This document shows, piece by piece, positions 5,153-42,042 of a stretch of DNA of 64,000 nt. The stretch covers positions 62,001 through 126,000 of the forward strand of contig CATKHK010000054.1 in NCBI GenBank assembly GCA_949751835.1, in the 5' to 3' direction. The number at the start of each line of letters is the position of its first letter. The stretch's first letter is position 1. The position numbers were made by a program, and so were the translations under genes. The notes under the pieces were generated by a model, which had not been told where the DNA came from, did no database searches, and saw nothing but the letters and a program-made list of their open reading frames with translations. Origin of the DNA: Blepharisma japonicum (Eukaryota; Ciliophora; Heterotrichea; Heterotrichida; Blepharismidae).

Positions 5153-8100
5153 ATGGAGGCAGTAGGACACAAAAGACAAAAAATCGGAAATTTTAATTAT
5201 ACACTTACACCTACTGTATCACAAAATCTTGCGGATCTTGAGCTTTGTTCAAAGACGAAGTATGGGCTATGCTTGATCGGACCTCCTTCTAGTGGTAAAA
5301 CAACCTTGATTCAGATCTTGGCTGAGCAAAATGGCCATGAGCTGATAAGCCTTTTCATTGACAGCTCGATTGATAGTAAGACTCTTCTTGGAACTTATCT
5401 ATGCACTGAGGTGCCAGGTGAGTTTACATGGGTCCCAGGTCTTTTAACTCAAGCTGCTTTGGATGGGGCATGGCTCATATTAGAGCAATTTGATAAGATG
5501 CCTGAAGATATCTATTGTCTTTTCTCTCATCTCTTAGAAACTAACACACTACACATTCCAAATAGAGGACAAATTATAAAACCAGCCAATGGGTTTAGAC
5601 TATTTGCCACAGCTGAAAAAATGCCAAGCCAATATAATCTGTCTAATTGGCTTACACATCATATAATCCCGTTAAACGAAAATGATTTATTTGAGCTAGC
5701 TCCTTTAAGAATCAGCAAAAGCGATTTGTTAAGAGATTTATTAATAAAATGCTTCAGAACTATGAAAGAAATAAAAGGAAATGAATTGGTAAATCGAGAC
5801 TGGTTTAAATTGTGCGAAAGAGTAAATTATCATGTGAGAAATATTTATGGTGATAGAGAAATGAATAATATAATCACTGAGAGCTTAAGAGAGTTAATAT
5901 TCCTCGAAGCTATGGGGGTTTTACTCGGAACAAGAGATAAAGCTCAAGCAATAGAGTGCTTAGCTGGATGCTTGAATATAGATAAAGAGCATTTAAAAGC
6001 ATTTTATGAAAATCGGACTATTAGACTGACTCTAACTGAAGATTCTATACAGATTGGAAAAGCTCCAGGATTGCCTACAGATAACAAGCCAAGCTCAATT
6101 AATTTTGCATGCACTCCTTACACACTAAGGCTGCTAGAAAACTTATGCACAGGCATTGCTAATTCAGAAAGCTTACTTCTAGTTGGAGAAACAGGAAATG
6201 GGAAAACAACTATTGTCCAATCTTTAGCAAAACTATTAGGTGTCAAACTATATGTACATAACCTTAGCCAAGTGTCTGATCCTTCAGATATTGTTGGTGG
6301 CTTTAAACCTATTGCAGTTTCCACTTTACTATCTCCGTTAGTCTCTGACTACTTCGATTTAATCCCAATCATCCTCGACAAACCCAATTTTTCCCAGCTT
6401 TTCACTAAACTTCGCAAATCTTTTACACAACAAAAATGGCACAAAGTAATAAAATATATGCAAATTTCATATACAGAAATCCAAACTCTTCTTCAAAAAG
6501 GAGCCCTTTCTTTATCTGCAGAAATCATACAAAAACTTGCAAAGTTGACTGAAGAAACTCAAAACACCGAAAATAAGCTAAAAGCTTCCCATTTTGCGTT
6601 TCAATTTGTAGAAGGGTCTCTTGTCAAAGCACTAAAAGAAGGGTCATGGATTCTTCTAGAAGAAATAAACTTGGCTGAAAATGAAATGTTGGAAAGGCTT
6701 CATAGTGTTTTAGAAGGCAGAGGAATCACACTTGTAGAAAAAGCTGAAAGCAAAGAAATAAAACCACATGTCAATTTTAGGTTGTTTGGCTGTATGAACC
6801 CAGGAAAGCAAGTTGGGAAAAAAGAATTGCCAAGCTCACTAAGGGCTAAGTTTACTGAAATTTGGGTAGAAGAAATGGAGAGATTTGAAGATATAAAAGA
6901 AGTCGTTATATGGTATCTTGAAGGAAGAGCTGATAGAGGCATTATGGATAAAATCGTCAATTTTTATCTTGAAGCTAGAAAAATGTGCAGAGAAGGGATG
7001 CTTGAGGATGGAAGAGGGAAAATTCCTCAGTACTCAATGAGAACTTTATGTAGAGCACTTAGATATGTACAAGAATTCGGCCCCTTATACGGGGTTCAGA
7101 TATCATTGTTTAATGCTTTGAGAATCTTTTTTGAAACAATGCTATCCCCTCAATCTCGGATAGAATTCTTGAAAATTGTAAAAAACCTTGACCCTCCACC
7201 TACAAGAATGCCAAAATCTCCTTCATCATCACATATAGAACTCTTTGGGTTTTGGCATGAAAAAGGCCCACTACCTGAATTTAACGACCCCAATTTCATT
7301 TTGACTCCTTCTGTAAGAGAATATTTAACACAATTATCCCGCGCAATTATTTTCAAAAATAATGCAATTTTATTAGAAGGTCCCACAAGCAGTGGAAAAA
7401 CCAGCATGGTTAAATATTTAGCTGGCTTAACAGGCCATGAATTTTTAAGGATAAATAACCATCAACATACTGATATAGAAGAATATATAGGCTCTTATGT
7501 TTCTGATGAAAGAGGCAGACTTATTTTCCTTGAAGGACCACTAGTAAAGGCTGTTAAAGAAGGTTATTTTGTAGTCCTTGATGAGCTGAATCTTGCCCCT
7601 TCTGAAGTATTAGAAGCTTTAAACAGACTTCTTGATGACAATAGAGAACTTTTTATTACAGAAACACAAACCACTATTAAACCGCATCCTCATTTCAGAT
7701 TATTTGCCACACAGAATCCTACAGGATATGCTGGGAGAAAGGAGCTTTCTAAAGCTTTTAGAAATAGGTTTGTAGAAATGTTTATTCCTGAGCTACCTGA
7801 TTCTGAACTTATACAGATTTTGGAAAAAAGAGGCAAACTAGCACCTTCATATGCACAAGTTTTGATTAATGTAATGAGGGAATTGCAAAGACACCGACAA
7901 CAAACTAGAGCATTTTTGGGGAGACAAGGGTTCATTACAATTAGAGATCTGTTAAAAATAGCTAATAGAGAGCCTATTGGATATGAACAATTAGGACATT
8001 TCACATTCGCAGTTTTAGGTGAAAGACTGAGAAATGAAGAGGAAAAAGAATTCGTAAAAAGTGTGATAGAAAAAAACTGCAAAAAAATTAAAATTGATAT

Positions 8101-11100
8101 GCCGAAATTTTATGATGAATACACAAAAAGCGAAAGCTTTCTAATGGATGTTGAAAGGCTAGACGAGACTATTGGAGTTGCAAGAGGACTAAGAAAAATT
8201 GCTTGGAATTCGCATATGAAAAGACTATACACACTAGTAGACATGGCAACTAAATGCAATGAGCCTGTTCTTCTAGTCGGAGAAACTGGGTGTGGAAAGA
8301 CAACTATATGCCAAGCTTTATCCTCAATGAGGAATACTGAGCTGAAATGCATCAATTGTCATCAATATACAGAAACATCAGACTTTATTGGAAGCCTTCA
8401 GCCTATAAGAGACAGAACAGCTATAAATGAAAATGAGCAAGAAGGCGGCCATAAGCTCTTTGAATGGGCTGACGGGCCATTAGTTGATGCTTATAACTTT
8501 GGCAAGTTCTTGTTAATTGATGAAATTTCCCTTGCAGATGACAGTGTTCTTGAGAGACTTAACAGTGTTTTAGAAATAGATAGAAAACTTCTGGTCCCTG
8601 AAAAAGGCGGAGAATGTAGTCTTGAAATGGTAGCAGCTGAAGGATTTCAGCTATTTGCAACAATGAATCCTGGAGGAGATTATGGCAAAAAAGAGCTTTC
8701 ACCTGCATTGAGAAATAGATTTACTGAGATGTGGGTAAGAGTTGGGATAGAAGAAATCAACGAAGTATTGATAACAATTTTAGATGCTGAAAAGACAGCA
8801 TTTCTCATAAGATTTATTGAATGGTATAACAGTTTTGCAAGGATTCCTTTATCTCTTAGAGATGCTATAGCATGATGTGATTTTATCAAAAATTCATCTT
8901 TAGATTTTTCTGTTTCTTTTTGGGAAGGCTTGTCGATGATCTTATTAGATTATTCAGACGACACGAATAAAGCAAAATGCATGAAATTTATAATTGAAGA
9001 GCTTCATGTCCCAGAGCCAAAAATCGAGTACAATGTTACAGCTACACCTCAGCTGTTTGGGATTTCGCCCTTTTACATTGAAACCAACTCATTATCTCTG
9101 CTAAGTAATTACTCTTTCAATGCACCAAACATAAAGAAAAGTCTTTATAGGCTATTAAGAGCTATACAGCTGAATAAGCCTATTATGCTAGAAGGACCCC
9201 CAGGAGTTGGGAAAACAAGCATTGTTGAGTCACTTGGCAAAGTCACAGGACATAAAGTTACAAGAATTAATCTTAGCGAAGAAACTGATTTAATTGATCT
9301 TTTAGGATGTGACATTCCTATAGGAGAAAGATTTGAGTGATGTGATGGCGTTTTGCTTTCAGCAATCAAAGCTGGAGATTGGGTCATTCTTGATGAACTT
9401 AATCTGTGTCCTCAGCCAGTGATAGAAGGCTTAAATGCATTACTAGACCATAGAGCAACAGTCTATATCCCAGAAATAAACAAAGAAGTCCAATGTCCTA
9501 TTTCTTTCAGAATTTTTGCAGCACAGAACCCAGTAGCTCATGGAGGAGGCCGCAAAGGCCTTCCAAAGAGTTTTTTAAACAGATTCACTAAAATATATAT
9601 AAGTGAGCTTACCAAGGAGGATTATATCAGAATTATTTCCGACATTTATCCTAATTTAGCTAATATCGATAAACTAGTAGAATTCAATGAAAAGATAAAG
9701 ACAGAAATCAAAGGGCCTTGGGAGTTTAATTTAAGAGATATGCTGAGATGGTGCCAAGGAGCTTCTATTGAGCTTCTTTACTACTATAGAACAAAAACAC
9801 ATGAACATCGAGAAAAAATTCAAGAAATTTATTATGAAGTATTTGGCTCTCACCTGATAATTAGCCCAGTTCCTTATTATAGAGTTAACCCTGATTACAT
9901 TGAAATAGGAAAATGCAAAATTCCAAATCTTAAGCCCGATACAAATTTAGCATTTATTCCAAGCCAAATGAACATTTTAGAGCAGGTGCTTTTTGCTATT
10001 GAAAAAAGGTGGCCTATTTTGCTTGTAGGAGATCATTCAGTAGGCAAAACTTCTATATGTAGGCTAGCAAGTGTTTTGATGAATAAAAACTTATATGAAT
10101 ATACTTTAAGCCCGACTACAGACTCAAGCGAACTTTTAGGCTCGTTTGAACAGAATGAAAACGGCAAATTTGAGTGGTATGAAAGTACTTTAGCAAAAGC
10201 ACTGAGAAATGGCGACTGAATTTTATTGAAAAACGCTAATCTTTGTCCTGCATCTGTTCTTGACAGAATTAATTCATTAATGGAACCAAATGGAAGCTTG
10301 CTTATAAATGAGCGTGGTCAAGTAAACGGAGAAAGCTATATCCTTAGAGCGCATCCAGACTTTTGTATGTTTATTACTTTTAACCCAAAGCTTGGGGAAG
10401 TTTCAAGAGCTCTTCGTAATAGATGCATTGAGATTTCAATGCTTGAGCATTATAATTACATGGATGTGCTCAGAATAACTGGCTCTCATTTTGTCACTAA
10501 GGACAGTTTTGCACGTTTAATCAAAAATGGATTTGGAGAAATTTTGAAATGGGAAGAACTCAGTCGATCAATAGAAAATAAAGAAAAAAGCTATTCACTA
10601 TTGTTTGGAGAAAGTATAGAGGATGAAATGGATGTAGAAGGAAGATTGATGTTTGAGAAACTAAGCAGCATACTTAAATCGCCGATTGAATCATATTTAA
10701 ATGAAGACTCAAAGTTCCTGGAAAAATGAAATAACCATAATGAAGCCAAGGCATGCTTTTTTGCAAATTCTTGCTACTTTGACTGTAATGAAAGAGCAAG
10801 CAAAGTCAAAAATGGCAATCTTGCTGAGTATTTTCAAAGCATATGAAACGAATACAGCAATAAAGGGATTTCGATGGACTATTATACACCTCTTTTAAAC
10901 CCAATTTGTCCTACCGCTCAATATATTCCTTATGAATTACAAGTTCATCTAGCCTTAATGTTAAATCTATCCATTTTCAACCTACCATGAAAAATGAATA
11001 TTACCTTAAAGCAGCAAGCTGATTTATTCCTTTATCATATTGCAAGTGATGATTTCACCAAGCACAAAATAATATCAAAATCCATTATGCCAGATGAGAT

Positions 11101-14100
11101 AACTTTATCTTATGCAAAACCTCCTCTTTCAAAAGAACTTATATCTTCATGAAAACAACGAGTCAGAACCTCGATCAAAGCCTGCCCAATTCCTATTGAA
11201 AAATTTCCATCTGTGCTGTCATCAAACTTTGTAAAAAAACTAATGAGCAATATAAATTACTCTGAAGAATTCCCGAAAAGAAGAGTAGTAGCTATTTCTG
11301 GAGAAGAATTTATAGACCAAGAAATTGGGCTAATTATGGACAAAGAAACATATCAAGCTGAGCAGCTGTTTTATATAGAAGAAATAAAGGATTTATATGA
11401 GCAGGTGTTATTGAGAGCATTATCAAGTATGGTTGATTCATCTTCACTTACGGATTTAGATGTTATTGAATTTTTGAATAATGAGTATATACCAACTTCT
11501 CTATTAAAGCCTTTATGGATATTGAGGTATAAAGTAGGGCTTCCTTTCTCTATCAGAGAAATCGCCTTGCCTATCTTGCAAGCTCCAATTGTACCAGAAA
11601 CTGATTTTTTGAAAATATATAGAGATTCCAAAGACACAACAATTTTCCATGCTCCAAAGCATTGGTTTTTAATTAGAACTCTGCTGAAATGGCCTCAGGT
11701 CAAATCATCACTAGCAATTCCAAATTCATATTTAGAGCTAGTATTTAATGAATTGGCAAATAAAATTGATGGCTCAGAGCTTGAACTATATTTCACTAAA
11801 AATGAAAGCTATAAAGCTGTTGGACTTGGGTTATGGCTTTATAAGCTTTATAAAGGTTTAATATGTGATCCTTCAGCTCTTTATAAAGGTTTGTCTATTG
11901 ATTATCAGCAAATGCAGCAAGAAATAGTTAAGAGAATTGAGATACGACAAGACTACAGTGCTTTTCGATATGGCTACAATTTTGATATTCCAATTATCAC
12001 GTTTTATTCACAATCCATTCAGCAGCTATCACAAAAAATAAATAAAGCTGAGCAAAATATAATATCCAGGTCATCAAACTCAGCAGAAATTATTAGTTAC
12101 ATCGCCAAACTGCCTTCTTATGAAAGACTTTCTCAACTTGTGTCTCACAACTTAACATCCCTGGAAACTGAAGGAACTCGCTATTTATTTGATTTACTTC
12201 AATCCTTACTATCCACCCTCATATCTTATCAAACAATTTTCCCTGACCTTTGTTCTCCGCTTTTAGAAGCATTACTTCTTATTCAATATGGCTTAAAATC
12301 TCTTTCCATTATTCCATCTCCTGTATTTACCTTTCCTTTTACTTTATCAAGTATGCCAAATTCTCTTCAGTCGTCTCTCATTAAAGGTCACTTATTCTAT
12401 GATTCTTCATTCCTTCCTAAATTTCTAAGCCTTATTCTTGATTTAACAGAAATTAAAGAATCCGAAGAACCAAAAAAGCTAAAAATAGTAAAAACCACTG
12501 AGCTAGAAACTGTTCATACAATTGGTGAACAGACAAGAGAAGAAAATATTAGAGAATATGAAGAAATTGAGAAGAGAGAAATCGAAAAATTGTTCCCAAA
12601 ATATAGAGATGAAAAAGCATGGATACCTGTTGAAATGAAAAAGAGGAAAGAAATTATTGAGGCTTGGAAAGACTGGGAATTTGCATGTGGTATGAGAGAT
12701 AATGAAGCTAAAAAGAGGTTTTTAGCACTGATTAATCCAGAAATTGCAGGAGTTTTCTTATGCAAGCCTCTAGAAATCCACTTAAAAAATCTATGCAATG
12801 AATTTGAATATACCCCTGAAAAAGAATCATACAATTTTTATTTAGACCCAAATCCAAAGGAAGCTATGGCAGCTTATACACCTTTAGTGAAGCTAATTAG
12901 CAAGCTAGCAGATTTCCTTAAATTATTCCCAGACCATGAAATCCTTAAGGAAACTCAATATCTTGCTTATAAAGTCCTTTCTCGGCCGCTTTTCTCAACG
13001 CCACTAATGCAGCTAGTCTCAGGATTTGACAATGTCCTGAAATTGGCCCATGATTGGGAAGACTATACAGGCTCAGAATATTCTCTAAAATCAGAGCTTC
13101 ATGAAATTTATGATTTGCTTAAAAGATGGAGAGAAAGTGAGCTTCAAAACTGGGAAGGGCTATTAGAGGCTAAAAAGTCAGAAATGATAGGACAAGATGC
13201 AAAACTATGGGCTAGGCTGTTTAGAGTTCTTTATGTTGAAAAAGCTAAAGGAAAAGAACTTTATGAAGCTCTTGAAATGTATATTCGGTCATCAAGCTTA
13301 GGATGTTTTGAAAACAGGCTTAAGGTACTGAAACTATTTGAAGACAAAGTAGATGCTGACCAAGTCTCATCTCTTCACCACATTTATGCATTTTACACAC
13401 AGTTCCAAGACCATTTCAATAAAACTATTGATTTCTATTTAGAACCTATAAAAAACAAGCTAAAAGAAATCGTTAAAATTGCCAGATTTAACGTCTCGAA
13501 CTATCATGCATGGAGAGAAACTGCTTTCAGAGCTCATAGGCAGCTGAATACCTTGATAAAGAAATATAAAGATGTGCTAGTCCTTAAATTCGAAGACGAA
13601 ATTTTGAGAAAAATCAGGCAGGATTATTCAGAAAACATCTTAGAGAAGCCTATACAAATTCTTGAGACTGCAGAGCCTGATAATGTTTTTGAAGAACTTT
13701 CACTAAGAATTTTCGAGAGGATTGAGACTATTAAAAATACAGAAAATGAGCAAGGGATTAAATATAGGTCTTTAATTGATTTATTGAATAATTTGAAAGA
13801 GCTAGGGTTTAGCCAGTTTTACCATTCAAAAGATACAGAAAAATTGTCGTTCAGCGAGCAGCCTGTAATTAATTATTATCCAGAAGAGCTAAAAGAAATT
13901 ATTGGTAAAGGAGAAGAGTATTATTATAGGTGCATTGATAAATTGACAATTCTTCATTCACTTATGGGGATTAATGATACAATTAAGCTGGAAGATAAGG
14001 AAAAATGTCTTGGATATGCGATTTTTATTATGTATTCTTTGATTGAAGCGCGAAAAGCACTTGCTAGCTCTTTAGAAACTTATAAGGCTTATGCAAAACT

Positions 14101-16651
14101 GAATGATGAAGAGATGAAAGTAGTTTGTCAAATTAATGAACTAGTAAAAGAAGTGACTCTTGAAAATCTTCAATTAGAAATAGATCAAGCTAATGGATTC
14201 AAAATATCATGCTTCAAGGTTTCAGGCACTATGAATGATTTATCTTTATGCAAAACTGCATTAAGCCAGCTCTCAGAAATTCCTAAATATTCAGAAATTG
14301 CCTCAACCCTCTCAGCAATACTTCCTGAGCCACGCCCAATTCCTAAATATTTTGAAAAATCTGAAATTCCAGACACTTATGTTGACGATCTCACTTCTTA
14401 TCCTTTACCAGCTATATGCTCTTATTATAAAAGTCTTGGAAAGCTCTTATACATTTTGATCTCAATATTTTCAAGTCTTTTTTCTAAAGGATTTTGTGGC
14501 TCTGAAGAAGAAGCTGCAGAAGAAGAGTCGGGCGAACAATTAGTTGAAGGGACTGGACTTGGAGAGGGCAAAGGAAATAAAGATATAGGAGAAGAATTAA
14601 TTGATGAAGAACAGTTCCAAGAACTTCAAAACCAAGAAGAAAGCGAACAAAAAGATGTGGATAAAGAAGGAGGAATGGATGTACGTGAAGAGTTTGAGGG
14701 AGAAGAAAGAAGTGCAGAAGGCAGTGAAGGAGAAGATATAGAAGGAAATGCTGAAGGAAATGAAAAACTTATGGAAGAAGAGCAAGAAGCCCGCAAGGCT
14801 GAAGGAGAAGTAAGGGAGTCTGCAAACCCAGAGATGACCAAAGAATCAGAAATGGAAGCCGGACTTCAGCCTCAAGATAGAGAAGGAGAAGCTGAAGACT
14901 TTGAAATGGCCCCTCCTGAGTCAGGATCTGAAGAAAACATGGACATGGACATCGACGCCAAAGAAGAAGACTTAATAAACGTGGATAAAAGAAACGAAGA
15001 CTATGAAAGCTCACAAGAAAACAGTGGAGATGAAAGCATGCAAGAAGACTCCGAAGCTGAACAAAATCAAACCAACGAACCCAACCTAAATGAATCAGAA
15101 ATGGAAGGCAAAGAATCAAAAGAAATAGAAGGATCAAGCGGAGAGGAAGAAGAAAAAAGATTAGAAGAATATAAGGACAGAGAATTCACAGATTATGATA
15201 AAGAAGCTTATGGAGTTGATAATCAAGCTGCGAACACTGATAAAATGAAAGGAAATGAAAATAAAGGAGAGCAGAATTCCAAAGATAAAGGCAGCTATAC
15301 TGATGTCATTAGCCAGATGAAAGGTGAATGAAACTCCCAGCAACAGCAACAGCAGAGTGAAACCGGCCAAAACCCAGAAACTGAAATAGAAGCTACTGTT
15401 AATGATGTAGAAACTGTAAATATGCCAGATGATATGAGCATCGAAAGGCCAGAATCTTCAAACATTTATACCTTTGATGAAAATTTCAATGATGTTACTT
15501 CTGCTCCCAGTTTAAAAAATAATCCCCAGCAAGAAGCAGGCAAACAAGTGCAGCCTAAAAAATCGGAACGTAAAGAAAGACCAAGAGAAGAAATCAAAAG
15601 TGAAAGCTTCAAAACTTTTGATAGCACAAAGAGAGATGAGCAGAGAAATGTGATACCAAAAATTGACATGATTAATTTCAATGATGGGAATGTTGGAAGA
15701 AAAGGAACTCATAGAACTGGAGGAGAAGAGGCCCCTATAAGCATAGATAATAGCGTTTTAGATCCTTTAGAAGAGCTTGAAAAACTTAGAAATCAAGTTA
15801 ATATGGAAGCTTTTGAAAAAGGACTTGCCGAATGGGAAAACTACGAAAGAGAAACTGCTTATATTGCGCAAGAGCTATGCGAACAATTAAGAATCATTCT
15901 TGAACCCACAAAAGCAAAAGGCCTTCAAGGGGATTATAAAACTGGTAAAAGAATCAATATGAAAAAAGTCATTGCTTATATTGCAAGTCAGTTCAGAAAA
16001 GATAAAATTTGGCTAAGAAGAACTAGGCCTACTGCCAGAGAATATCAAGTACTGCTAGCTATTGATGATTCTTTTAGTATGAAACAGCATGGACTAGGAG
16101 ACATTGCGAAAAAAGGCTTATCTATTTTGGCCCAAGCTTTACATAAGCTTGAAGTAGGAGAACTCGGGGTTGCTGGTATCAGAAATGGTATGAATTTATT
16201 GCATGACTTTGGCCGGCCATTTTCAAGTGATGAAGGAGGCTTTATCATGTCTCAGCTTGATTTTGAATATGGAAGAGATGTGGGCTCTGATACAGCATAT
16301 CCAAGATTTATGCAGCAGTGCTATGATTATTTAGAAAAATGTGGAAACCAAAATATGCAGCTCGTTATTATTATTTCTGATGGAAGACTTAATAAAAACA
16401 AAGTCAGGCCATGGGTCAGAAAAAATGAAGGGATATTCTTTTTATTTGTAATTGTCGATAATCAAGAAAGTTCTATTATGGATATGCAGAGCGTTGTGTT
16501 TGAGAAAAAAGATGGGAAAAATGTTGTGAAAAAGACATCATATTTGGAAGATTTTCCTTTTGAATATTATGTTGTGGTACAAAATCCAGGGTTACTGGTT
16601 ACAATTTTGCTGGATGTCATTAAGCAGTGGTTTGAGCTTATGAAAGAATAA
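5153..16651 (+). CDS. MDN1: Midasin (Rea1), AAA ATPase of 60S ribosome assembly
   Basis: One 3,832-aa frame, held open through eight TGA codons read as Trp (8873, 9338, 10217, 10727, 10844, 10988, 11150, 15329). Six AAA modules carry Walker A motifs near residues 44, 344, 742, 1042, 1347 and 1625 (for example GPPSSGKTT, GETGCGKTT, GDHSVGKTS). A helical linker follows, then an acidic stretch at about 3115-3350. The C-terminal MIDAS domain has the DxSxS motif (IDDSFSM, about 3636). Midasin is a nuclear dynein-like motor that pulls assembly factors off pre-60S particles through its MIDAS domain. Yeast and human forms are about 4,900-5,600 aa, so the linker here is short. No intron is needed, though a phase-1 15-nt intron without a stop could hide. 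Confidence 0.96.
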
Positions 16652-17057: not shown

Positions 17058-17318
17058 ATGGAAAGCAAGAAGGTTCGGGTATGGATCTGTGGATCTTGAG
17101 GTTACTGGAATAAGGCCAATTTAACTAAACAAGCTTTAATGCAAGAATTAAACTTATCAGACTCTCAAATCGAGTGCATGCCAGGTGAGTCAAGACAACT
17201 CAAAGTCGACGTTGTTGTTGGAGGACAATCCCACACTGTAATCAGCAGAAAAGGAGGAGACTTCTTCCCAAGACAAGCACCAATGGAAATTGTAGAGGCT
17301 GTAAGAAAATACTTCTAA
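17058..17318 (+). CDS. SELENOW: Selenoprotein W-like (Rdx family), candidate Sec at UGA
   Basis: A small 86-aa thioredoxin-fold protein. Its N-terminus reads VRVWICGS-(TGA)-GYWNKA, with the TGA at 17097-17099, codon 14. In the SelW/Rdx family this loop is CxxU or CxxC (C-G-x-U-G-Y), so the TGA sits exactly at the redox selenocysteine. The family's later signatures are present: a QELNL-like helix, an ECMPGESRQLKVDV strand, SRKGGDFFP, then a C-terminal helix. Trp at 9 and 17 are encoded by TGG. Elsewhere in this window TGA means Trp, but Trp here would destroy the redox pair. A SECIS-like hairpin starts 4 nt after the TAA stop. SelW proteins are small cytosolic glutathione- or thioredoxin-linked redox proteins. 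Confidence 0.85.
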
Positions 17319-17321
17319 CTT

Positions 17322-17375
17322 CTCAATATCTATGTGAAGGGGTCACTTAAAGTTTAGTGGCTTCTGAGGATAGAG
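17322..17375 (+). promoter_or_regulatory. Candidate SECIS element in the 3' UTR of the SelW-like gene
   Basis: This sequence folds as a eukaryotic SECIS. Helix I: CTC-AA-TATC (17322-17330) pairs with GATAGAG (17369-17375), with AA bulged. A 5' internal-loop stretch TATG follows. The quartet is UGAA (17335-17338) against UGAG (17365-17368), giving the tandem G.A/A.G pairs. Helix II has nine unbroken pairs between 17339-17347 and 17356-17364, some G-U. The apical loop carries AAA at 17349-17351. About 11 nt separate the core UGA from the loop adenines, the usual spacing. Deviations are G before the core UGA (usually A) and G at the last quartet position. It lies about 236 nt after the UGA codon. 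Confidence 0.8.
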
Positions 17376-18531: not shown

Positions 18532-19692
18532 TTAGTTAAATGGTTTATAAGAATTTAAAACAGATGATCTCGCAAAGGAATCTTGATCAAGATCACTTTT
18601 CATTAGTCTGCCTGAGTTCATTAAACTTTTGTACCTATTATCGATTTCTTCGACTTCTTTGTCGAGGATTCTCTCTTGGATGCTAGGCTTTTTTGTATGA
18701 TGAGAGTGGGTATGTGATTTTTTGGGAGGTTTGGTGGAGTAGTCTTCAGACTTTTTCTTGGTTTTTCTATGTTCTCGTTTTTCTGTGAGCTCTCGAAAAT
18801 ATTGCTCGTTTTGACGATTCTGCTCAATTAAAACGTCTTTGCTTTCTTCTAGCTGATTTATGGTGGACCGTAGAATTTCGATTTCTCTTCTGAGTTGTTC
18901 GATTTCTTTTTGCTGGGTGTCTGCTAAGTCTTGTAAAAATTTATTTTTGTATTCCATTTCTCTTACTTTATGACTTTCATATAAGGCTCTGTTTTGCTTT
19001 TGCTTATCTGAGCCTCTGGAAGAAGAAAGTTCTCTTTGCAATTGAGTTATGAATTTTTGGGCTTCTTCAAGCTCACTTTTAAGCTGATTCTTTTCTACTT
19101 CAAAACCACTAGTATGCTCTTCAGTTTCTTTGACCTCAGTTTTAATTTTATTTATTGTGTTTTCTAGTTTTTGTGTTTTAGAAGACTCATAGTCTAAATC
19201 AGTTTTTAAAACATTTGATTCTTGCTTAACTCGATCAAGCTCCGCTGATATCTGCCTATTTTGATCTTCAAGCAGCAAAATTCTACGTCCACATCTTTTG
19301 AATTCATCTTCATAATCAAATATTTTTTTCTTATTTGCTTCTAATTGCTGCTGGCTATCTTCCAATTGTCTAATTGTTTCCTCTTTATCTTTTTGTGCTC
19401 TTTCTCTTTCAACTATAATTTGCCTTTTTAATTGTTGATTTTCTTTATCAAGAACAGCTGCTTTTTCTGTTAAAGCTCTAATACAATTAGCAACAGCTTT
19501 TGAGTTAGTTTTTTTATCTTCTAATATAGAAGATGATTTTAAATCTTGAAGCGGGCTCGGAGATGTGTCAAATCTAAAATCAGGACTATAAGAGCTAAAT
19601 TCTGGGTTTTGAGAAGACTGGAGCACTTTGCTTTTTGGCGAAATATATTGTTCTTTATATGAATTCATTCCTTTTTCGAATGATTTATCCAT
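18532..19692 (-). CDS. Coiled-coil protein, unrecognised
   Basis: A 386-aa protein. A Ser/Pro-rich N-terminal 65 residues precede a long heptad-rich coiled coil at about 70-300 (many E/K/Q/R with periodic L/I). A basic His/Lys-rich patch follows (KKSHTHSHHTKKPS), then a short conserved-looking tail (EEIDNRYKSLMNSGR). It ends TAA and uses neither TGA nor introns. The layout would suit a centrosomal, basal-body or cytoskeletal linker, and there is faint similarity to CEP57-type proteins at CIRALTEKAAVL. I cannot assign a family. It diverges from the next gene with 157 bp between start codons. Confidence 0.75.
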   Translation of the reverse strand: MDKSFEKGMNSYKEQYISPKSKVLQSSQNPEFSSYSPDFRFDTSPSPLQDLKSSSILEDKKTNSKAVANCIRALTEKAAVLDKENQQLKRQIIVERERAQKDKEETIRQLEDSQQQLEANKKKIFDYEDEFKRCGRRILLLEDQNRQISAELDRVKQESNVLKTDLDYESSKTQKLENTINKIKTEVKETEEHTSGFEVEKNQLKSELEEAQKFITQLQRELSSSRGSDKQKQNRALYESHKVREMEYKNKFLQDLADTQQKEIEQLRREIEILRSTINQLEESKDVLIEQNRQNEQYFRELTEKREHRKTKKKSEDYSTKPPKKSHTHSHHTKKPSIQERILDKEVEEIDNRYKSLMNSGRLMKSDLDQDSFARSSVLNSYKPFN

Positions 19693-41711: not shown

Positions 41712-42042
41712 TTTTTGTAATTTAATTTATCTCCGTAAAAAGTAAAATTGTTGCTATGAAAAACAATTTAAATTATTTTAAATTATTATAAAAGGATAGA
41801 AATTATAATTATTTAGAATAAATATAAGGATTATTAATGGTTATTCGCTATTATATATTTAATAAAATCAAAAATAGCTACCATTATGCTTGCTCCTAAA
41901 AAGATATGACTTTTTTTAATGAATTATAAAAGAAGTGAATCATTTTATGATGAAGATATTAGCAATACTAATCAGCCTAGAGCTGAGATTAAAAATACTT
42001 AATATTTACCAAATGAAACCATTCTTAAAGGAAAGTCATTAT
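41712..42042. other. Convergent spacer, no gene
   Basis: AT-rich 331 nt between convergent 3' ends. I see nothing in it besides presumed 3' UTR sequence. No hairpin like the one after the SelW gene was found. Confidence 0.45.

Follow-up and report, generated by a model that had tools for sequence, protein, structure and literature searches.

A SelW/Rdx-like gene of Blepharisma japonicum with UGA at the selenocysteine position and a SECIS-form hairpin, in a nuclear code where UGA ordinarily means tryptophan

The window analysed here is a 64 kb stretch of Blepharisma japonicum DNA (C54:62001-126000; GC content 33%) taken from an assembly of 45,185,585 bases in 224 contigs, which was searched as a whole for the related genes and components described below. 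The window contains an open frame, SelW1, that an earlier note on this DNA had described as a SelW/Rdx-like frame of 86 codons with TGA in its CxxU motif, and our reading of the frame bears this out (Table 1). The N-terminal motif of SelW1 reads C11-G-S-U14-G-Y. With codon 14 entered as Cys, or as Sec (treated as Cys), nearly the whole Pfam Rdx profile could be aligned to SelW1 with a score of 22.0 bits (E 1.9e-4) against a cut-off of 22.6, and the score drops to 14.0 bits when Trp is placed at the same codon. SelW2, a second gene of the genome that is described below, reaches 20.0 bits against the same cut-off with Cys at its TGA and gives no match with Trp. Since both proteins score just below the curated Pfam cut-off, we labelled them SelW/Rdx-like. 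NCBIfam TIGR02174 gave 20.8 bits for SelW1 against a cut-off of 34.2, and there was no SelW among the PDB sequences searched. SelW1 and SelW2 were also both absent from the listing of a genome-wide Rdx profile search, indicating that such searches lose true members.

Downstream of SelW1, in the presumed 3' UTR, lies a hairpin of SECIS form. As the same note had claimed, all the stems, the quartet and the apical AAA are present; two of its distances had to be corrected, since helix I begins 10 nt past the stop codon and not 4, and the apical AAA lies ten bases from the quartet and not about 11. The UGAA/UGAG quartet holds tandem G.A and A.G pairs between the two helices. Folding with RNAfold gave the same stems at -20.6 kcal/mol (z -2.06), 7 of 200 shuffled sequences being equally good.

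Table 1. Features of the SelW1 locus, in window positions
Feature	Positions	Strand	Basis
SelW1, SelW/Rdx-like selenoprotein gene (candidate)	17058..17318	+	ATG at 17058, 86 codons plus TAA
Cys11 codon of the SelW1 CxxU motif	17088..17090	+	frame reading
SelW1 in-frame TGA, codon 14, Sec position	17097..17099	+	also TGA in the paralogue SelW2
SelW1 stop codon TAA	17316..17318	+	frame reading
SECIS-form hairpin, presumed 3' UTR	17329..17374	+	RNAfold, descriptor, paralogue comparison
Helix I, 5' arm	17329..17333	+	RNAfold; partner 17370-17374
SECIS quartet, 5' side UGAA	17335..17338	+	sequence, descriptor
Helix II, 5' arm	17339..17347	+	RNAfold, descriptor; nine pairs with 17356-17364
Apical AAA	17349..17351	+	sequence, descriptor
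Helix II, 3' arm	17356..17364	+	RNAfold, descriptor
SECIS quartet, 3' side UGAG	17365..17368	+	sequence, descriptor
Helix I, 3' arm	17370..17374	+	RNAfold

A strict SECIS descriptor, composed after the SelW1 hairpin had been seen, asked for RTGAN, AA 9-11 bases on, a helix II of nine pairs, a 3'-side GA and a helix I of at least 4 pairs. When both strands of the 64 kb window were scanned with it, this site alone matched, and 0 matches were obtained in 20 first-order Markov resamplings. When one mismatch was tolerated, the descriptor also matched at 41907, the resamplings giving on average 0.3 places (0.05 when helix I was of at least 5 pairs). This second, weaker SECIS-like hairpin (41907-41935) stands without a TGA-bearing gene immediately upstream, and for that reason we rejected it as a second SECIS and consider it probably due to chance. 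When the SelW1 hairpin was compared with the Rfam SECIS families, none of them was among the matches to E 10, and the hairpin is therefore filed as a SECIS by structure only.

SelW2 was turned up by a genome-wide search with a SECIS pattern and is located on contig C7 (786 kb). The two SelW proteins share 73 of 86 residues, including the C11-G-S-U14 motif, and codon 14 is TGA in both genes. With codon 14 set aside, dS is 0.58 and dN 0.10, about 41% of the synonymous sites being different. The first 61 bases past the stop codon, which include the hairpin, are identical at 57 positions; ungapped identity is 11/30 and 7/29 further downstream and 28/60 upstream of the start. Within the hairpins we observed four differences. 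Two fall in the apical loop; the other two lie in helix II, where the changes from C-G to U-G and from U-G to U-A keep standard pairs, and all 15 base pairs are intact in both genes. At the rate of synonymous divergence between the two genes, the chance of finding at least 42 of the 46 hairpin bases identical is 1.6e-6. Four transitions placed at random leave every pair and core base intact in 7.8% of trials, indicating that the keeping of pairs is in itself weak evidence and that it is the base identity that is strong.

The earlier note had proposed, as a check, to look for other family genes with TGA at Sec positions plus a SECIS, and three genes beyond SelW1 combine a TGA at the Sec site with a hairpin of the SECIS kind, namely SelW2, one GPx and TrxR. 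Eight GPx genes were found, of which seven have Cys at the catalytic site and one has TGA (NVACE-TGA-GL). Left as X, this TGA aligned with a Ser of the solved structure 2wgr and a Cys of 2v1m, both of which we take to be engineered replacements of Sec in the Schistosoma enzyme. The C-terminus of TrxR reads GC-TGA-G-TAG, and its X aligned with the X at the end of the solved TrxR1 3ean, presumably the Sec of rat TrxR1. At the 3' end of this gene (L040), the Sec codon lies just a few tens of bases upstream of the SECIS. Cys scored above Trp at the TGA in both cases, with 131.1 vs 124.7 bits for the GPx profile and 661.2 vs 656.5 bits for the TGR profile (TrxR). The preference of the profiles for Cys marks the TGA sites of SelW, GPx and TrxR as thiol/selenol sites but does not in itself show that Sec is made.

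In all four hairpins GTGA is present, as are a 3'-side GA and an AAA ten bases past the quartet. Their quartets are UGAA/UGAG in SelW1 and SelW2, UGAA/GGAG in GPx and UGAC/UGAG in TrxR, the TrxR hairpin fitting only with a bulge in helix II. The folding z values of the three other hairpins are unremarkable (-1.17 for GPx, -0.87 for TrxR and -1.01 for SelW2), and in helix I the minimum-energy fold of the GPx hairpin does not follow the SECIS form.

A looser descriptor (at least 8 of the 9 helix II pairs, bulges of up to 2, at least 3 pairs in helix I), applied to the 200 nt past the stop of each frame, was present in 4/4 genes with TGA at the Sec site (192 nt covered for SelW2) and in 0/17 other genes. 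This contrast is not an independent test: three of the four positives (SelW1, GPx and TrxR) had served to shape the descriptor, and the stops of the comparison genes are open-frame ends uncorrected for splicing, so that a few of the 17, most of all L027 and L030, may in reality end elsewhere. The comparison genes were the seven Cys GPx genes, the Cys forms of SPS and SelT, four Rdx-like genes (two of which have TGA as Trp), two glutathione-reductase-like genes, SepSecS and eEFSec; an 18th gene, L026, was left out because it had no 3' sequence. As SECIS finders we rejected a covariance model built from SelW1 alone, which missed the GPx and TrxR hairpins, and a generic SECIS model made from 30 designed sequences, which placed SelW1 top in the window and GPx top overall, and TrxR below chance hits (12.3 bits vs 14.0 for a chance hit). 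Genome-wide, the SECIS pattern matched 289 places and its backward control 187. Among the matches listed (the first 100 of 289), SelW2 alone showed all nine helix II pairs and, the matches listed being 100 of 289, the count of selenoproteins is a lower bound of at least four.

Five components of Sec decoding are present in the genome: tRNA-Sec, eEFSec, an SBP2-like protein and SPS, for which the earlier note had proposed to search, and SepSecS too. The tRNA-Sec scored 75.6 bits with the anticodon TCA (UCA) and was the sole match above the family cut-off in the genome. SepSecS was found by genome search with E 2e-126. Domain IV of eEFSec (E 1.2e-19) lies in a single open frame whose beginning resembles that of a GTPase. 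SPS (E 7.7e-62) is a Cys form, GCSC, its Cys presumably sitting where Sec forms have Sec. The SBP2-like protein, of 306 residues, matched a solved SBP2 with E 4.2e-21, the next best match being ribosomal L7a with 5e-4. A SelT-like gene on the minus strand of C31 (L023) encodes Cys (CQSC) once a 15-base intron-like stretch is removed by eye, and no SECIS was found downstream of it.

Use of TGA dozens of times in the window, also claimed before, was confirmed: 77 TGA vs 150 TGG were counted in 32 ORFs chosen from 74, uncorrected for splicing. TAA and TAG were taken as the sole stop codons in this count, from which alone an absence of UGA stops does not follow. The midasin-like (MDN1) frame at 5153-16651 contains eight TGA among its 3832 codons, and one of them faces Trp in a single repeat-domain alignment to a solved homologue; the single TGA of SF3a60, another gene of the window, lies at no conserved site in the alignment to its solved homologue. 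Outside the window, the TGA of SepSecS, left as X, faces a Trp of the solved SepSecS 3bc8. In this gene (L029, C173:18481-19665; 1798-1833), the Trp-site TGA comes just after a 15-base GT..AG intron-like stretch that carries an in-frame TAG. At one site of the Rdx-like paralogues, TGA is found in L024 and L025 and TGG in L026 and L027. The Rdx-profile matches L019-L022 and L024-L028 sit inside longer proteins with insertions. All Trp codons of the four selenoprotein genes are TGG (2 in SelW1, 2 in SelW2, 1 in GPx and 5 in TrxR); selection against TGA-Trp in SECIS mRNAs was rejected as a cause, since the seven Cys GPx genes and the two glutathione-reductase-like paralogues, inspected by eye, also lack TGA past their likely starts. 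The window also holds a 386-codon minus-strand ORF (18532-19692) without TGA or TGG and without a Pfam match at E 1e-6.

In the tRNA survey 63 out of 2483 candidates were scored, and 20 loci were analysed with ARAGORN. Six identical tRNA-Trp genes were found, all CCA (L046, L047, L051-L054), three of them within 4 kb on C47. Their anticodon stem, ACGGA-CTCCAAA-TCCGC, has an A.C mismatch as its top pair, which leaves four pairs. The genome tRNA searches gave no tRNA-Trp(UCA), although an intron-bearing or strongly diverged copy may have escaped them. A four-pair tRNA-Trp(CCA) is described as raising UGA readthrough in Blastocrithidia and Condylostoma and as occurring in Blepharisma and Loxodes (PMC13092985), and a second report has it that such a tRNA appears present in these last two (PMC12005148). 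This tRNA feature and this code agree with those described for Blepharisma by Swart et al. (eLife 2024; cited by PMC13092985 and PMC12005148). The eRF1 of B. japonicum is reported to recognise all three stops (Eliseev 2011, as cited elsewhere), and competition between this eRF1 and a tRNA-Trp has been deduced (PMC4967479).

Taken from sequence, the most satisfactory reading of the locus is that SelW1 of this heterotrich ciliate very probably encodes a SelW/Rdx-like selenoprotein, its UGA 14 being read as Sec by means of a SECIS where UGA ordinarily means Trp. This reading, and with it the dual Trp and Sec meaning of UGA put forward in the earlier note, is strongly supported because the Sec machinery, three further genes with TGA plus a SECIS and the conservation of the hairpin between the paralogues all point to it. 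We infer which residue is inserted and how efficiently, that the mRNA includes the hairpin, and what part the tRNAs play. The SECIS of the 3' UTR would recruit the SBP2-like protein and eEFSec with Sec-tRNA(UCA), which would then read UGA codon 14 of the SelW1 mRNA as Sec, and in mRNAs without a SECIS the UGA would be read as Trp by the near-cognate tRNA-Trp(CCA) with its four-pair anticodon stem. The SECIS would thus serve less to override a stop than to switch the amino acid from Trp to Sec. A cognate UGA-decoding tRNA-Trp, once proposed as the competitor, is probably not the one at work, only tRNA-Trp(CCA) having been found, in six copies with the top anticodon-stem pair unpaired, and Sec-tRNA(UCA) would therefore compete with a near-cognate. 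The contest at codon 14 would then be between cognate Sec-tRNA(UCA), brought by eEFSec, and near-cognate Trp-tRNA(CCA), the release factor being a possible third competitor at this SelW codon. We tentatively suggest that, with UGA an ordinary Trp codon and no tRNA other than tRNA-Sec having a UCA anticodon, the SECIS could be a pure switch, selenium giving the active Sec enzyme and its absence a full-length, catalytically dead Trp version, possibly with a role of its own.

It is conceivable, if somewhat unlikely, that both residues are made at codon 14, Sec when selenium is plentiful and Trp when it is scarce, scarcity leading to a full-length inactive protein and not to a truncated one. Where UGA is otherwise a stop, failed Sec insertion leads to truncation, and in Blepharisma tRNA-Trp(CCA) is the only other UGA reader found, which argues for such a double product. 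However, the release factor may still compete at this codon (Eliseev 2011, as cited). The making of both residues refines the reading of UGA 14 as Sec and does not exclude it.

That UGA 14 is read as Trp, SelW1 being a Trp-bearing SelW relative and its hairpin having another role or none, would agree with the Trp-like UGA across the window and in the Rdx-like paralogues and with the near-cognate tRNA-Trp present in six copies. We nevertheless hold it to be very improbable, since four genes belonging to three families each carry TGA at the Sec site together with a hairpin that is missing from the 17 other genes, since the hairpin is conserved between SelW1 and SelW2, and since the Sec machinery would be left without a substrate. 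Insertion of Cys at UGA 14 through the SECIS route, thiophosphate replacing selenophosphate, is known in mammals at low selenium but is most improbable as an explanation here, SPS and SepSecS being present and nothing pointing to Cys as the main product. We likewise give almost no credit to the SelW gene or the Sec machinery being a contaminant from another organism: some of the 224 contigs are possibly foreign, but SelW1 sits amid TGA-using genes in the window, SelW2 lies on another long contig (C7, 786 kb), and SepSecS has a Trp-site TGA and a 15-nt GT..AG insertion like Blepharisma introns (PMC9942806).

UGA read as both Trp and Sec is, as a kind, already known from the reports on Condylostoma and Parduczia, Amoebophrya and Blastocrithidia, and the statement of the earlier note that it knew of no nuclear Trp/Sec case is contradicted by them (PMC4967479, 2016; PMC6394959, 2019; PMC12153298, 2025). 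In Condylostoma magnum and Parduczia sp., UGA means Trp, stop and, with a SECIS, Sec (Swart et al. 2016, PMC4967479). These are ciliates too, with Trp and SECIS-dependent Sec at UGA, a tRNA-Sec in the C. magnum genome and a penultimate Sec codon of TrxR close upstream of the SECIS (PMC4967479). Unlike in these species, where UGA also stops, no such stop was seen here in frames read with TAA and TAG as the only stops. Relative to that report, the SelW pair and the GPx are additions from Blepharisma; among the TrxR homologues that its Figure S2E shows aligned about the Sec codon is MMETSP1395, labelled bjaponicum, and the Sec codon of Blepharisma TrxR may thus already be in print (PMC4967479, Figure S2E). 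A search among openly licensed papers gave no statement on Blepharisma selenoproteins.

In Blastocrithidia spp., UGA likewise encodes two amino acids, and the report cites the Trp/Sec case in ciliates (PMC12153298, 2025). Blastocrithidia shares with Blepharisma the Trp and Sec meanings of UGA (there in SelT, SelK and SelTryp) and a tRNA-Sec (PMC12153298), and also a tRNA-Trp(CCA) with a four-pair anticodon stem (PMC13092985). Unlike Blepharisma, it is a trypanosomatid with UAR also reassigned, and its SelTryp holds both UGA meanings in one mRNA, which we did not see in the four Blepharisma genes (PMC12153298). Amoebophrya sp. ex Karlodinium veneficum, with UGA as Trp, has three likely Sec genes, selT, selM and selO (PMC6394959, 2019); as in Blepharisma, UGA means Trp and Sec, the sole UGA-cognate tRNA found there being tRNA-Sec, and a SECIS is given for selT, but it is a syndinean dinoflagellate with all three stops reassigned (PMC6394959). 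Euplotes crassus is, like Blepharisma, a ciliate in which one sense codon has two meanings including Sec (Turanov et al. 2009, cited in PMC12153298 and PMC4695839), but its UGA otherwise encodes Cys, chemically similar to Sec, and that of Blepharisma encodes Trp (PMC12153298, PMC4695839).

Blepharisma, a laboratory ciliate, would join the few lineages in which one nuclear codon stands for Trp or Sec. Its known set is compact, comprising two SelW genes, a GPx, a TrxR, a tRNA-Sec and an SBP2-like protein, and in it SECIS decoding would be set against a near-cognate sense tRNA. With such a set, the degree to which a SECIS shuts out sense decoding can be tested, and so can the consequences of selenium exhaustion.

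As to the genome itself, that of Blepharisma stoltei is 41 Mb with 66% AT, introns mostly of 15-16 bp and UGA as Trp, and its telomere repeat is CCCTAACA (PMC9942806). Among four contig ends examined in the present assembly, none of three carried TGTTAGGG repeats, and the remaining one carried 13.
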